Assembly (NCBI GenBank): GCA_001799635.1
Contig: MGTV01000037.1
Span: 1 to 64,000 of the forward strand
Source of the DNA: Elusimicrobia bacterium GWA2_62_23
Lineage (GTDB): Bacteria > Elusimicrobiota > Elusimicrobia > Elusimicrobiales > UBA9959
DNA length: 64,000 nucleotides
Direction: 5' to 3'
Below, piece after piece: positions 26,310-54,570 of the stretch. Made by a program: the position numbers and the translations under genes. The number at the start of each line of letters is the position of its first letter. Positions within the stretch are counted from its first letter, which is position 1. The notes below the pieces were generated by a model, which made no database searches, was not told the origin of the DNA, and was given only the letters and a program-made list of their open reading frames with translations.

Positions 26310-26315
26310 ATTTCT

Positions 26316-26416
26316 GAAGAGCGGTAAGTCCGTTGCAGGTGGTCCGGGTGTTCCCCTCCGTATGGTGGCTAATAGCCCGGATATTGTCCCTGCTCGGCGC
26401 GCTCTTCTTCTTTTTT
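26316..26416 (+). ncRNA. Predicted ~100-nt small RNA gene
   Basis: The 5' arm GAAGAGCG (26316-26323) pairs with CGCTCTTC (26400-26407), followed by TTC and T6. Nested inside are GCAGG/CCTGC, TCCGGG/CCCGGA and a small apical hairpin whose 5' side is C-rich (TTCCCCTCCG). No reading frame of note is present. I do not recognise a known family: it lacks the GGAAGG motif of SRP RNA and is too short for standard 6S RNA. The promoter, exact stem start and U-tract together mark a complete independent RNA gene. The CCCCTCC segment could pair with Shine-Dalgarno sequences (inference). Confidence 0.65.
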
Positions 26417-28202: not shown

Positions 28203-28237
28203 CAAAAAAGGGAAAGCGCGTATGAGGCGCTTTCCCT
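28203..28237 (-). terminator. Terminator hairpin at the end of the structured region
   Basis: Stem GGGAAAGCGC / GCGCTTTCCC with a 7-nt loop followed on the minus strand by TTTTTTG. Confidence 0.85.
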
Positions 28238-28380
28238 GGATGCGTCCGGTTACGGCCGGACCGTGGATACCCGGGGGCCGATTCCCCCGATTACAAGGTT
28301 GCTACAGCCATAGGATAGCGCGCAAAACTGGACACGCCAAGGGCACTATGGGCACAGGGGATTGGGCCAAAAGGCCTATG
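28203..28380 (-). ncRNA. Candidate structured RNA or long structured 3' UTR
   Basis: Read on the minus strand this stretch contains consecutive hairpins: GGCC-TTTT-GGCC, CCATAG/CTATGG (28350-28355 and 28306-28311), GGGGG/CCCCC, GTCCGG/CCGGAC, and finally a 10-bp GGGAAAGCGC / GCGCTTTCCC stem followed by T6, which is a strong terminator. It starts just after the LPP20-type gene, so it may be that gene's 3' UTR or a separate RNA. No promoter was identified and no known family matches. Confidence 0.4.
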
Positions 28381-51273: not shown

Positions 51274-51327
51274 TTGAGCCCCTTTTGAGCCGGATTTGAG
51301 CGCTTCTTGAACCCTGTTTGTTATACT
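51274..51327 (+). promoter_or_regulatory. Promoter 1 with four TTGARC repeats at 11-bp spacing
   Basis: TTGAGC at 51274, 51285 and 51296 and TTGAAC at 51307, each exactly 11 bp apart, then a 9-bp gap and TATACT (51322-51327). One helical turn per repeat and a missing -35 hexamer are the layout of PhoB/OmpR-type activated promoters. The last 27 bp (TTCTTGAACC...TTATACTTTC) are almost identical before the second RNA. Confidence 0.8.
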
Positions 51328-51333
51328 TTCTAT

Positions 51334-51579
51334 GTAGCAGAACGCTCTTTAAAAACAGGCCGCCTTGCGCATAGCGCTCAATGCGGCACGTACACAGTAC
51401 AGATCCCCGGCGTTGTACGGTGCGCCCCCCTAACCCAAACCCCCAAGACTCGGGGCTTCGGCCCCGGGCTCTATGCACCTGCAGCGCCGGCTTTTTAAAA
51501 GCCCCGCCGGGCAACATTTCAGACTCCCCCCATCAGGCCAATGTCAGGCGCCATGGTATCCCGGCGGGGCGACTTTTTT
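51334..51579 (+). ncRNA. Structured small RNA, copy 1 (unrecognised family)
   Basis: Start point near 51334, end at the T6 of 51574-51579. The main hairpin pairs 51407-51423 with 51475-51490 (16 pairs, one bulged C). It encloses a 51-nt segment (51424-51474) identical in copy 2, which contains C-rich single strand and a CGGGGC-TTCG-GCCCCG hairpin. The terminator pairs GCCCCGCCGGG (51501-51511) with CCCGGCGGGGC (51560-51570) around a 48-nt loop containing GACTCCCC. A 32-nt element (51358-51389) precedes the main hairpin. No coding frame with a start signal fits. Confidence 0.8.
51358..51389 (+). repeat. Short repeat R, copy 1
   Basis: GGCCGCCTTGCGCATAGCGC... to GCGGCAC, forming a small hairpin (GCAT/ATGC). 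Inside the 5' part of RNA 1. The second copy is at 51587-51620, between RNA 1 and promoter 2. Confidence 0.65.
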
Positions 51580-51586
51580 AATATTT

Positions 51587-51620
51587 GGCCGCTTGTTGCG
51601 CATAGCGCCTGATGCGGCAC
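51587..51620 (+). repeat. Short repeat R, copy 2
   Basis: GGCCGCTTGTTGCGCATAGC... to GCGGCAC, nearly the same as 51358-51389 apart from a two-base insertion and a few substitutions. It lies upstream of promoter 2 instead of downstream, so the tandem units are not simple copies of one block. Confidence 0.65.
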
Positions 51621-51631
51621 CGACAAAAGTC

Positions 51632-51663
51632 TTGAACGGTTCTTGAACCGCGTTTATTATACT
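51632..51663 (+). promoter_or_regulatory. Promoter 2 with two TTGAAC repeats at 11-bp spacing
   Basis: TTGAAC at 51632 and 51643, then a 9-bp gap and TATACT (51658-51663). Same spacing as promoter 1, with two repeats instead of four. Confidence 0.78.
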
Positions 51664-51669
51664 TTCAGT

Positions 51670-51873
51670 GTCGTATCGCTCTTTACAAAAAACAGATCCC
51701 CAGTGTTGTTGTTGCGCCCCCCTAACCCAAACCCCCAAGACTCGGGGCTTCGGCCCCGGGCTCTATGCAGCAGCAGCACTGGCTTTTAAAAGCCCCGCCG
51801 GGCGACATCAGGTAAGACTCCCTAGTAAGTCCCACCGAACCTCATCATGACTGTCCCGGCGGGGCGCTTTTTT
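51670..51873 (+). ncRNA. Structured small RNA, copy 2 (unrecognised family)
   Basis: Start point near 51670, end at the T6 of 51868-51873. The main hairpin pairs CCAGTGTTGTTGTTGC (51700-51715) with GCAGCAGCAGCACTGG (51767-51782): 16 of 16 pairs, three of them G-U. Compared with copy 1, stem bases differ at several positions but pairing is kept. The enclosed 51 nt (51716-51766) are identical to copy 1. The terminator stem is the same 11-bp GC stem (51792-51802, 51855-51865) with a different 52-nt loop that contains GACTCCC and AGTCCCACC. Confidence 0.82.
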
Positions 51874-51908: not shown

Positions 51909-52595
51909 ATGAAGGAACGCGTCCTTATCGTAGACGACGACCCCGAGCTGCTGGGCATCCTCCGGAAATACCTGGAGAACCACGGGCTGGAGACCATCAG
52001 CGCCGCCAACGGCGCCGAGGCCCTGGCGGCCGCTCCCGCCGGCAGGCCGGACCTCATCATAACGGACGTGGAAATGCCCCGCCTGGACGGGTTCGCGCTC
52101 TGCCGCCGCATAAAGGACAACAAGGCCCTGGCGGACATCCCCGTCATCATCATGACCGGTAAGAAAATTTCAGAGGCCGACCACGTAGCCGGTTACGGCT
52201 ACGGCGCGGACGATTACGTGGTAAAGCCGTTCTCCTACGCCGTGCTCCTGGCCAAGGTAAAGTCCATGCTGCGGCGGGCCGCGAGGGGCAGGAAGAAGCG
52301 GGACGTCTTCAAGGCCGGCGAACTGGAAATGAACCTGGAAGGCCGCACCATAAAGCTGAAAGGCAAACTGGTAAAGATCACCTCCAAGGAATTCGACCTG
52401 CTGCACACCCTGGTCTCCAAGCCGGGGAAGGTGCTCAGCCTCAACAGCCTGCTGGAAGCCGTGTGGGGCTACAACACGGCCGACTACAACGACCCGCACA
52501 CGGTAGAGGTGCACGTCTCCAACCTCCGCCGCAAGATAGGCGGCTTCGGCAAACGCATCAAGGCCGTGCCCGGCCACGGCTACAAGTTCGAATAA
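51909..52595 (+). CDS. OmpR/PhoB-family response regulator
   Basis: 228 residues. The receiver (1-120) has acidic pocket D9-D10-D11, phosphoacceptor D53 in I-I-T-D-V-E-M-P, and V-V-K-P-F. The winged-helix output (130-228) has the OmpR/PhoB pattern T-S-K-E-F-D-L-L-H-T-L, V-E-V-H-V-S-N-L-R-R-K-I and G-H-G-Y-K-F. Such proteins bind direct repeats 10-11 bp apart. The two adjacent RNA promoters carry exactly such repeats, so they are likely targets (inference). Kinase-like genes follow in the same direction. Confidence 0.92.
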   Translation: MKERVLIVDDDPELLGILRKYLENHGLETISAANGAEALAAAPAGRPDLIITDVEMPRLDGFALCRRIKDNKALADIPVIIMTGKKISEADHVAGYGYGADDYVVKPFSYAVLLAKVKSMLRRAARGRKKRDVFKAGELEMNLEGRTIKLKGKLVKITSKEFDLLHTLVSKPGKVLSLNSLLEAVWGYNTADYNDPHTVEVHVSNLRRKIGGFGKRIKAVPGHGYKFE

Positions 52596-52626: not shown

Positions 52627-54570
52627 ATGAAAAGATCTTCTCTAGCCACCAGCGACGCCGTCACCCTGGGCAAGGCCCTGCAGGCCATGCTCGGCACCGC
52701 TTTTTCCCCGGACAACTTCGGGCCCTTCCTCGAGAAAACCCTGCGCATCATGGCCGACAGCCCGGTCATCGGTCCCCGCGCGAAACTTGCGGTGACCCTC
52801 CGCTCCGGCCGGGTGGAAGGGGCGTTCCGTGGATTTTGCGCCAAGGACCGGGCAAGCCTCCTGGCCGGGCGTAAGCCCTCTACCGCTGGCCGGCTTATAT
52901 CGGAAACCGTCCGGCTGGGCAACGCCCGGGCCGGCCTGATGACCGTCCTTTTCCCCGAGCCGCCCGAAAACGTTCTGGCGGCGAAGGCCCTGCTCGGCAT
53001 GGCCGCCCAATTCGTCTCCGCCCGGTTGCAGTCGGAGAAGCGCGACGAAGAGCTGGCCTTCGAAAGGGACCTGGCCGCCTCCCTGAAGCACATAGAGGAA
53101 CTTTACCTGGCCTTTCCCGATATTTCCATAGAGGAGATCTCCCGGGCCGTGCTGGACGAGGCCCGGCGCATGACCGGCAGCGACTTCGGCTTCACCGGCC
53201 ACATAGACCCCGCCACCGGCTGGCTCCTCACCTCCTCTCTCACCACCGAAACCTACGACAAGTGCCAGATGGCCAAAAAGCCGGTGGTCTTCAAGGACTT
53301 CACCGGCCTGTGGGGCTGGGTGCTGAAGCGAAAAAAAACGCTGCTCACCAACAAAGCCGCTTCTGACCGGCGCGCCGGCGGGCTGCCTAAGGGCCATGTC
53401 ACGATAGAAAAATTCCTGGGCGTACCGGCCATGTCCGGCCGCCGGCTGCTGGGCATCCTGGCCCTGGCCAACCCTTCCGGGAGCTACTCGGCCCGCGACC
53501 TGGACACGGCCCAGAAACTCGCGCGCGCCTACGCCATCATCCTGCAGCGCAAACTGGCTGACGACGCGAGGAGAGAAGAGGATACCAGGTTCAAGACCAT
53601 CGTCTCCTCTACCAAGGACACCATCTACACCGCGGACCTCCGGGGACGGATCACCTACGTGAGCCCCAGGGTGGAAGATTTCGGCTACAGCGCGGAGGAG
53701 GTGATAGGCCTCAGCGTGACCGGGCTGGTGCACCCTGAAGATCTGGAATTCATAAAGAAGGCCTGGGCCAACGCCCTGGCCACCGGGCGCACACTGCCCA
53801 TCCTCCCTTACCGCATAAGGAAAAAAAGCGGGGACTTCGCCTACGTGGAGCAGAAGAGCGGGATAGTCTTTCACAACGGCCAGCCCCTCTACATCACCGG
53901 CGTCATCCGCGACGTGACCGAACAGAAGCAGACGGAACTGCTGCTCAAGGAAAGCGAGACCATGATGCGCATGGTCTTCGACACGGCCGCGGACCCCATC
54001 TTCATCAAGGACATGAACGGGATGTACGTGAAGGCCAACAAGGCCTGCGCCGACCTGATGGGCACTACCCCTGAGGCGATGATAGGCCGCTCCGATTCCG
54101 ACTATTTCCCCGCCGAGTCGGCCGCGGCCGTTTTCCGGACCGACAGCGAAGTGGTGCGCAGCGGACGCACCCTGTCGCTCTACAACTATCATCCTTTCCC
54201 CGGAGGCAGCCGGCACGTCAACATCATAAAGACCCCGCTGCGCAACGTCCGCGGCGAGACCATAGGCCTGCTGGGCATAGCCCGCGACATCACGGACCTC
54301 AAGCGCATGGAGGCCGAACTGGCCCTGGCGCGGGCGGCCGAAGCGATCAGCACTGTGGCGCGGCCGATGGCCCACGATTTCAACAACGCGCTGGCCGCCA
54401 TAAACGGCTACGCCACCCTGATAGCCGACGGGCTGGGGAAGAACAGCCCCATAAAGACGGAGATCTCCCGCATCATCGAAGCGGTAAAACGCGCGGCTGA
54501 GCTGACCTCCAAGTTCCAGGATTTCGCCCGGAACCCCAAAATAGGCGGCCGCCAAAACGGGCACGAGTAG
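52627..54570 (+). CDS. Sensor protein with GAF and PAS domains and a dimerisation/phosphoacceptor domain but no ATPase
   Basis: 647 residues, no membrane segment. Residues 1-140 are uncharacterised; a GAF domain spans about 155-315 (W-G-W-V-L-K-R-K-K-T-L-L and G-V-P-A-M-S-G). Two PAS domains follow (320-440 and 445-565). The end is a HisKA-like segment with H583 in P-M-A-H-D-F-N-N-A-L-A-A-I-N-G-Y, and the protein stops 64 residues later without N, G1 or G2 boxes. It therefore cannot phosphorylate itself. The next gene encodes a matching HisKA plus ATPase. Confidence 0.82.
   Translation: MKRSSLATSDAVTLGKALQAMLGTAFSPDNFGPFLEKTLRIMADSPVIGPRAKLAVTLRSGRVEGAFRGFCAKDRASLLAGRKPSTAGRLISETVRLGNARAGLMTVLFPEPPENVLAAKALLGMAAQFVSARLQSEKRDEELAFERDLAASLKHIEELYLAFPDISIEEISRAVLDEARRMTGSDFGFTGHIDPATGWLLTSSLTTETYDKCQMAKKPVVFKDFTGLWGWVLKRKKTLLTNKAASDRRAGGLPKGHVTIEKFLGVPAMSGRRLLGILALANPSGSYSARDLDTAQKLARAYAIILQRKLADDARREEDTRFKTIVSSTKDTIYTADLRGRITYVSPRVEDFGYSAEEVIGLSVTGLVHPEDLEFIKKAWANALATGRTLPILPYRIRKKSGDFAYVEQKSGIVFHNGQPLYITGVIRDVTEQKQTELLLKESETMMRMVFDTAADPIFIKDMNGMYVKANKACADLMGTTPEAMIGRSDSDYFPAESAAAVFRTDSEVVRSGRTLSLYNYHPFPGGSRHVNIIKTPLRNVRGETIGLLGIARDITDLKRMEAELALARAAEAISTVARPMAHDFNNALAAINGYATLIADGLGKNSPIKTEISRIIEAVKRAAELTSKFQDFARNPKIGGRQNGHE

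Follow-up and report, generated by a model that had tools for sequence, protein, structure and literature searches.

A conserved tandem pair of C-tract RNAs beside a two-component system in Elusimicrobia: a new RNA family with a proposed regulatory role

RNA regulators of the phylum Elusimicrobiota have, to our knowledge, hardly been studied; a full-text literature search for Elusimicrobia in combination with 6S RNA returned no paper. A tandem pair of transcription units in one genome of this phylum raises the question of what kind of RNA they specify and how it might act, which is addressed here with sequence evidence throughout. The window analyzed here is a stretch of 64,000 nt from Elusimicrobia bacterium GWA2_62_23 (GCA_001799635.1; contig MGTV01000037.1, positions 1–64,000, forward strand). 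A sequence-only reading of this DNA had placed two units at 51334–51873, each with a promoter, a long hairpin and a U-tract terminator, and had suggested a novel class of regulatory RNA. All of these elements are present in the sequence, and all of the features described below lie on the plus strand unless stated otherwise.

Copy A is preceded by four TTGAR half-sites at an exact 11-bp spacing (TTGAGC, TTGAGC, TTGAGC and TTGAAC; 51274–51312), the last of which is also its −35 element, followed by the −10 element TATACT (51322–51327). Its leader contains the boxA-like element GCTCTTTAAAA (51344–51354) and an optional small palindromic hairpin (51358–51387) that is missing from most other copies. 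Hairpin 1 (51407–51490) is composed of stem P1, an open C-tract strand (CCCCCCUAACCCAAACCCCC; 51425–51444) and the apical hairpin P2, and hairpin 2 (51500–51570) is a long-loop intrinsic terminator containing GUMAGRC-like repeats and followed by T6 (51574–51579). Copy B has two TTGAAC half-sites with 11-bp spacing (51632–51648), the −10 element TATACT (51658–51663), the boxA-like element GCTCTTTACAA (51678–51688), hairpin 1 (51700–51782) with its C-tract strand (51717–51736), and a second hairpin that again constitutes the intrinsic terminator (51791–51865) and ends in T6 (51868–51873). A simple promoter scan scored only the second promoter; both promoters fit those of homologous copies. Downstream lies an operon with the genes for an OmpR/PhoB-family response regulator of 228 amino acids (51909–52595), the proposed activator of both RNA promoters, and for its partner sensor protein (52627–54570). 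A palindromic element around TTGCGCATAGCGC occurs within leader A (51358–51389) and again between the units (51587–51618), and similar elements were seen near the RNA in L017 and L122.

The paired stem changes that had been noted between the two copies are real: CCGGCG/CGCCGG in copy A corresponds to CCAGTG/CACTGG in copy B, with the third pair changed from G-C to A-U and the fifth from C-G to U-A. Compared with dinucleotide shuffles, both RNAs had the better fold (z = −3.45 for copy A and −5.74 for copy B). In an alignment of 68 homologous hairpins, which was fitted to a covariance model and hence is biased towards structure, 94.8% of the cells were standard pairs, P1 (16 bp) was 99.2% paired, and double changes were found in 22 of 27 pairs compared with 13.3 in shuffles. 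None of 500 shuffles of this alignment reached any of five covariation measures, and sliding the register by 1–3 columns destroyed pairing, leaving at most 10 pairs with double changes. A structure-free MAFFT alignment agreed, as helix 1 was 98.9% paired and 15 pairs contained double changes. Thus, homologues preserve the stem pairing through many compensatory changes, as the sequence-only reading had expected. G-U pairs were common in the stem of the 68 hairpins, and length changes of 1–2 nt in the loop ruled out a coding sequence. The open region is one-sided, with about 22 nt facing 1–3 nt on the other strand. Covariation and folding computationally demonstrate the predicted rod that holds the C-tract strand open, and we have next to no doubt that this is a real structured RNA family.

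The apical run that is identical in the two copies had been given as 51 nt; we measured 57 nt (51421–51477 and 51713–51769). This identity had been taken as a sign of selection. P2 was 92% identical when the paired copies within a genome were compared and 83–86% identical between genomes, which points to partial homogenization of P2 between the copies within a genome, so that the identity of the two window copies is by itself no proof of selection. In contrast, identity of the C-rich strand was 95–97% and equal within and between genomes, indicating that this strand is under selection. Thus, the argument is weak as it was worded, and conservation of the C-strand across genera takes its place.

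By DNA search, the element was recovered from 31 of 61 related genomes, most of which have two copies within a few hundred bases of each other. When GTDB genome contigs were scanned for an exact pattern, the matches were almost exclusively in Elusimicrobia records, some of them titled just 'bacterium'. Matches in Clostridiales, Anaerolineaceae and Planctomycetota (L054, L059 and L067) were due to chance, being without stem, promoter or terminator on inspection, and no copy was found in viral contigs. A covariance model built from 56 hairpins was run on 341 Elusimicrobiota genomes and identified the RNA in 46, every one of which belongs to the same family as the window genome; a second model, built from 68 hairpins and used with a looser threshold, raised this number to 49 of 341. 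Such matches in relatives had been predicted. The E-values of these models are approximate, and since the genomes are mostly draft metagenome assemblies, absence from any single genome means little. Nearly all full-scoring copies were confined to one locus per genome. As had also been claimed, no known family was recognized: a search of the locus against Rfam 15 gave no family at gathering thresholds and nothing credible up to E=10. We class the RNA as a new family, probably within the kind of two-component-controlled sibling sRNAs, with boxA and the C-tract rod as its unusual features.

The promoters of the RNA carry a consistent signature. All 67 true copies that were scanned contained two to four upstream TTGAR half-sites at 11-bp spacing, with about 0.4 such arrays expected from shuffles. 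Most copies from the window's genus had four half-sites, and a single 12-bp spacing was found, in L040. The one array-less motif match among 68 scanned was a stray match in L111 (a single model hit). Known binding sites of the OmpR/PhoB family have the same direct-repeat geometry (PMC4832192), and a direct-repeat array of this type at the promoter is what a two-component-controlled sRNA should have. When 32 genomes of the genus were searched for arrays of three half-sites, 76 of the 85 arrays were located at the RNA locus; nine lay elsewhere, and the reversed pattern gave three. The near confinement of these arrays to the RNA locus makes the RNA look like the main output of the system.

A response regulator gene was found near the RNA, mostly adjoining it, in 43 of the 44 loci with enough flanking DNA, a count from which L012, L021 and L035 were left out because the sequence ends before the expected position of the regulator. 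In L023 the RNA was present and the regulator was not found within the flank fetched. The RNA is upstream of the regulator gene in genera g1, g3, g15 and g16, and downstream of the sensor gene with a promoter of its own in g2, g11, g12 and g14, indicating that the partnership between RNA and regulator outlived rearrangement. The distance from the last half-site to the −10 element is 17 bp in the window's genus and about 9 bp in those genera where the RNA follows the sensor gene, so the promoter architecture has changed. In genome G141 (L180, C1, near 2181), the gene for a related response regulator is immediately followed by a three-unit TTGAG array with 11-bp spacing, although the RNA is absent from this site; this arrangement supports a connection of the regulator with the array. 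A second TTGAG pair in the window's own genome (C7:68430) was intergenic and by eye lacked RNA-like structure. Judged from these arrangements, the adjacent regulator very probably controls the RNA. The regulatory role is inferred, and is backed by the response-regulator-type arrays and the conserved two-component neighbor.

The sensor protein contains GAF, PAS and HisKA domains, the last with an AHDFNN box. An ATPase domain was not detected in the window protein or in several orthologues across genera, and recurrence of this layout in orthologues of several genera argues that it is no local defect. Either another kinase phosphorylates the regulator, or the sensor serves as a phosphatase or scaffold.

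The leader element of copy A fits the published gamma-proteobacterial boxA consensus GYTCTTTAANA (PMC5725501) exactly, and that of copy B departs from it at one position. The 16S rRNA leaders of the same genus carry the boxA GCTCTCTAAAA, which the element in the RNA leader resembles. As in the Nus antitermination of rRNA leaders, boxA occurs soon after the start of an untranslated RNA, with the difference that here it is on an RNA of about 200 nt. The boxA survey states that non-coding RNAs were left out of consideration (PMC5725501). By its motif, the element likely shields this C-rich untranslated RNA from Rho.

All members share a constant plan, consisting of promoter, boxA, P1 (16 bp), the open and nearly G-free C-tract strand, P2 and the closing P1 strand, and terminators are conserved among the homologues. 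The 3′ part varies. Members from the window's genus have, after hairpin 1, a second hairpin with a loop of 40–50 nt, and this hairpin is the terminator. In distant genera (L109 and L112–L116) the U-tract follows hairpin 1, which itself looks like a terminator; distant members are only about 85–130 nt. In some species (L017 from about 4285, L018, L024 and L028), hairpin 1 is separated from the terminator by a structured insert of about 90–140 nt that contains several palindromes. Repeats of GUMAGRC were found 83 times in 57 hairpin-2 loops compared with 4.1 expected, a count made with slightly wider degeneracy and with some loops counted twice where hairpin 2 is only on the downstream copy. Pairs of GUMAGRC elsewhere in the window's own genome amounted to two sites, both unremarkable. 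Repeated GGA motifs of the kind recognized by CsrA/RsmA were not found in the loops, where the open strand is nearly G-free and the repeated motif is GUMAGRC.

In the most distant members the exact sequence of the C-strand drifts, and three to five C-tracts of 3–6 nt stay, separated by A/U spacers. Each loop contains several C-tracts with centers mostly 6–10 nt apart, and within the window's genus the A/U spacers are conserved too. This pattern suggests that selection may act on a multivalent array of C-tracts, more than on one exact seed. A long complementary partner was not found in the genus, as matches with up to three mismatches were almost all RNA genes and their relatives. When the C-strand was paired with the start regions of 48 genes in the window, the result was p=0.11 against shuffles and p=0.016 against intragenic stretches.

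In our favored reading, to which we assign a probability of roughly 45%, the adjacent two-component system would have as its main and perhaps sole transcriptional output two sibling sRNAs of about 245 and 204 nt, which would act through their multivalent C-tracts. The OmpR/PhoB-type regulator would bind the 11-bp-spaced TTGAR array and activate both promoters. The boxA in the nascent RNA would then recruit an rRNA-type antitermination complex, which would protect the C-rich untranslated transcript from Rho. The RNA folds into the rod with its nearly G-free C-tract strand open, as covariation and folding show computationally, and ends at the intrinsic terminator. An open loop of GUMAGRC repeats is added by the second hairpin in the window's genus. 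The weakest step is the last, in which the C-tracts would serve as a multivalent trans ligand, most likely by base-pairing to G-rich sequence around the translation starts of several mRNAs in the manner of LhrC. Action in trans is probable, and antisense pairing of the C-tracts with mRNA start regions, which we propose by analogy, is a tentative choice. Counting against this model are the variable geometry between half-site and −10 element, the locus without a regulator (L023), the ATPase-less neighboring sensor, the value of 0.11 for start-region pairing against shuffles, and the failure to find a long complementary partner in the genus.

The C-tracts could instead act on protein. Rho prefers C-rich unstructured RNA, and an RNA whose periodic C-tracts, with or without the GUMAGRC repeats, sequester a C-tract-binding protein, for example Rho or one of the KH/RRM type, much as CsrB or RsmY/RsmZ do, would explain why closely spaced C-tracts are kept while spacers and exact sequence change, why a second motif is repeated in the other loop, and why a long antisense partner was not found in the genus; boxA would then guard the RNA itself against Rho. 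The candidate protein is, however, only hypothetical, at about 22 nt the strand offers little length to a Rho hexamer, and the conservation of A/U spacers within the genus goes beyond the needs of a loose protein site. We regard sequestration as possible and rather doubtful. An extended version is unlikely: a Gac/Rsm-like circuit with another motif in an unrelated phylum, in which a two-component system with an ATPase-less sensor has as its only output a boxA RNA pair that titrates a C-tract-binding protein such as Rho. If it were true, arrays of C-tracts and GUMAGRC would reset termination or translation genome-wide.

Three other explanations fare worse. That the regulator gene follows closely on the end of the second copy in the window's genus would suit a cis-acting leader or attenuator of that gene, but there are two complete units, each with a terminator, and the RNA follows the sensor gene with its own promoter in four genera; we consider this very unlikely. 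A divergent 6S RNA, acting as a decoy for RNA polymerase, would account for the rod shape and the length of about 200 nt, and because the Rfam 6S model (RF00013) finds nothing in 46 relatives, 6S RNA is unseen there. However, the strongly one-sided opening is unlike the promoter-like bubble of 6S RNA, RF00013 did not match the locus even at E=10, and in the short distant members hairpin 1 looks like the terminator, which leaves this reading slightly less likely still. Least credible by far is an element that functions as DNA, or a mobile repeat. Small palindromes and the insert of about 140 nt in or beside some copies would fit such an element; the wide use of G-U pairs in the stem, the restriction of nearly all full-scoring copies to one locus per genome, and the promoter, boxA and terminator that the copies carry would not.

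The favored reading, with sibling sRNAs as the output of the two-component system, places the RNA near several known systems by logic only, as its sequence and structure fit none that could be tested. We know of no other case in which a response-regulator box found almost only at an RNA locus goes together with an rRNA-type boxA in a transcript of about 200 nt and with a rod that displays periodic C-tracts. The 6C RNA of Actinobacteria displays C-runs in hairpin loops; it shares this trait with the present RNA and differs in phylum and architecture, and here boxA and regulator arrays are added and Rfam is unmatched. The CiaR-dependent csRNAs of streptococci are likewise sibling sRNAs whose promoters contain direct repeats, spaced by 11 bp, for a regulator of the OmpR type, and the siblings share an open region between or within stem-loops (PMC3091779, PMC8186281). 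CiaR uses TTTAAG-N5-TTTAAG (PMC3091779), whereas the Elusimicrobia arrays read TTGAR-N6-TTGAR and the RNAs differ in sequence; the csRNAs belong to a wider CiaR regulon, they are not known to carry a boxA, and the covarying C-tract rod is a feature of the present RNA. Pairing of C-tracts with G-rich start regions was proposed for csRNAs and shown for LhrC of Listeria, which is also multicopy, two-component-dependent and poor in G, and whose several C-rich (UCCC) binding sites are located in loops and in a single-stranded segment (PMC4132741). Kinship with LhrC in sequence or structure was not detected, and the targets of the present RNA are only proposed. The RsmY/RsmZ and CsrB/CsrC sponges of the Gac system resemble it in that a two-component system acts chiefly through sibling RNAs with repeated loop motifs (PMC4132741); their motif is GGA, whereas here it is the C-tract or GUMAGRC, with a protein partner that is only hypothetical. 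If the reading is confirmed, a two-component system in a deep-branching lineage would speak mainly through RNA, and the choice between antisense action and protein sequestration by C-tract RNAs would become testable.

Several genomes of the family also contain a second, dispersed type of C-tract hairpin of about 75 nt with a CTCCCTAACCCAAACCCC-type loop, located before unrelated genes (seen in L160, L161, L163, L164, L252, L253, L255, L256 and L257). Elsewhere in the window, Rfam matches identified a 2dG-II purine-type riboswitch aptamer on the minus strand (28231–28301) and a DUF3800-V RNA on the plus strand (26314–26409).
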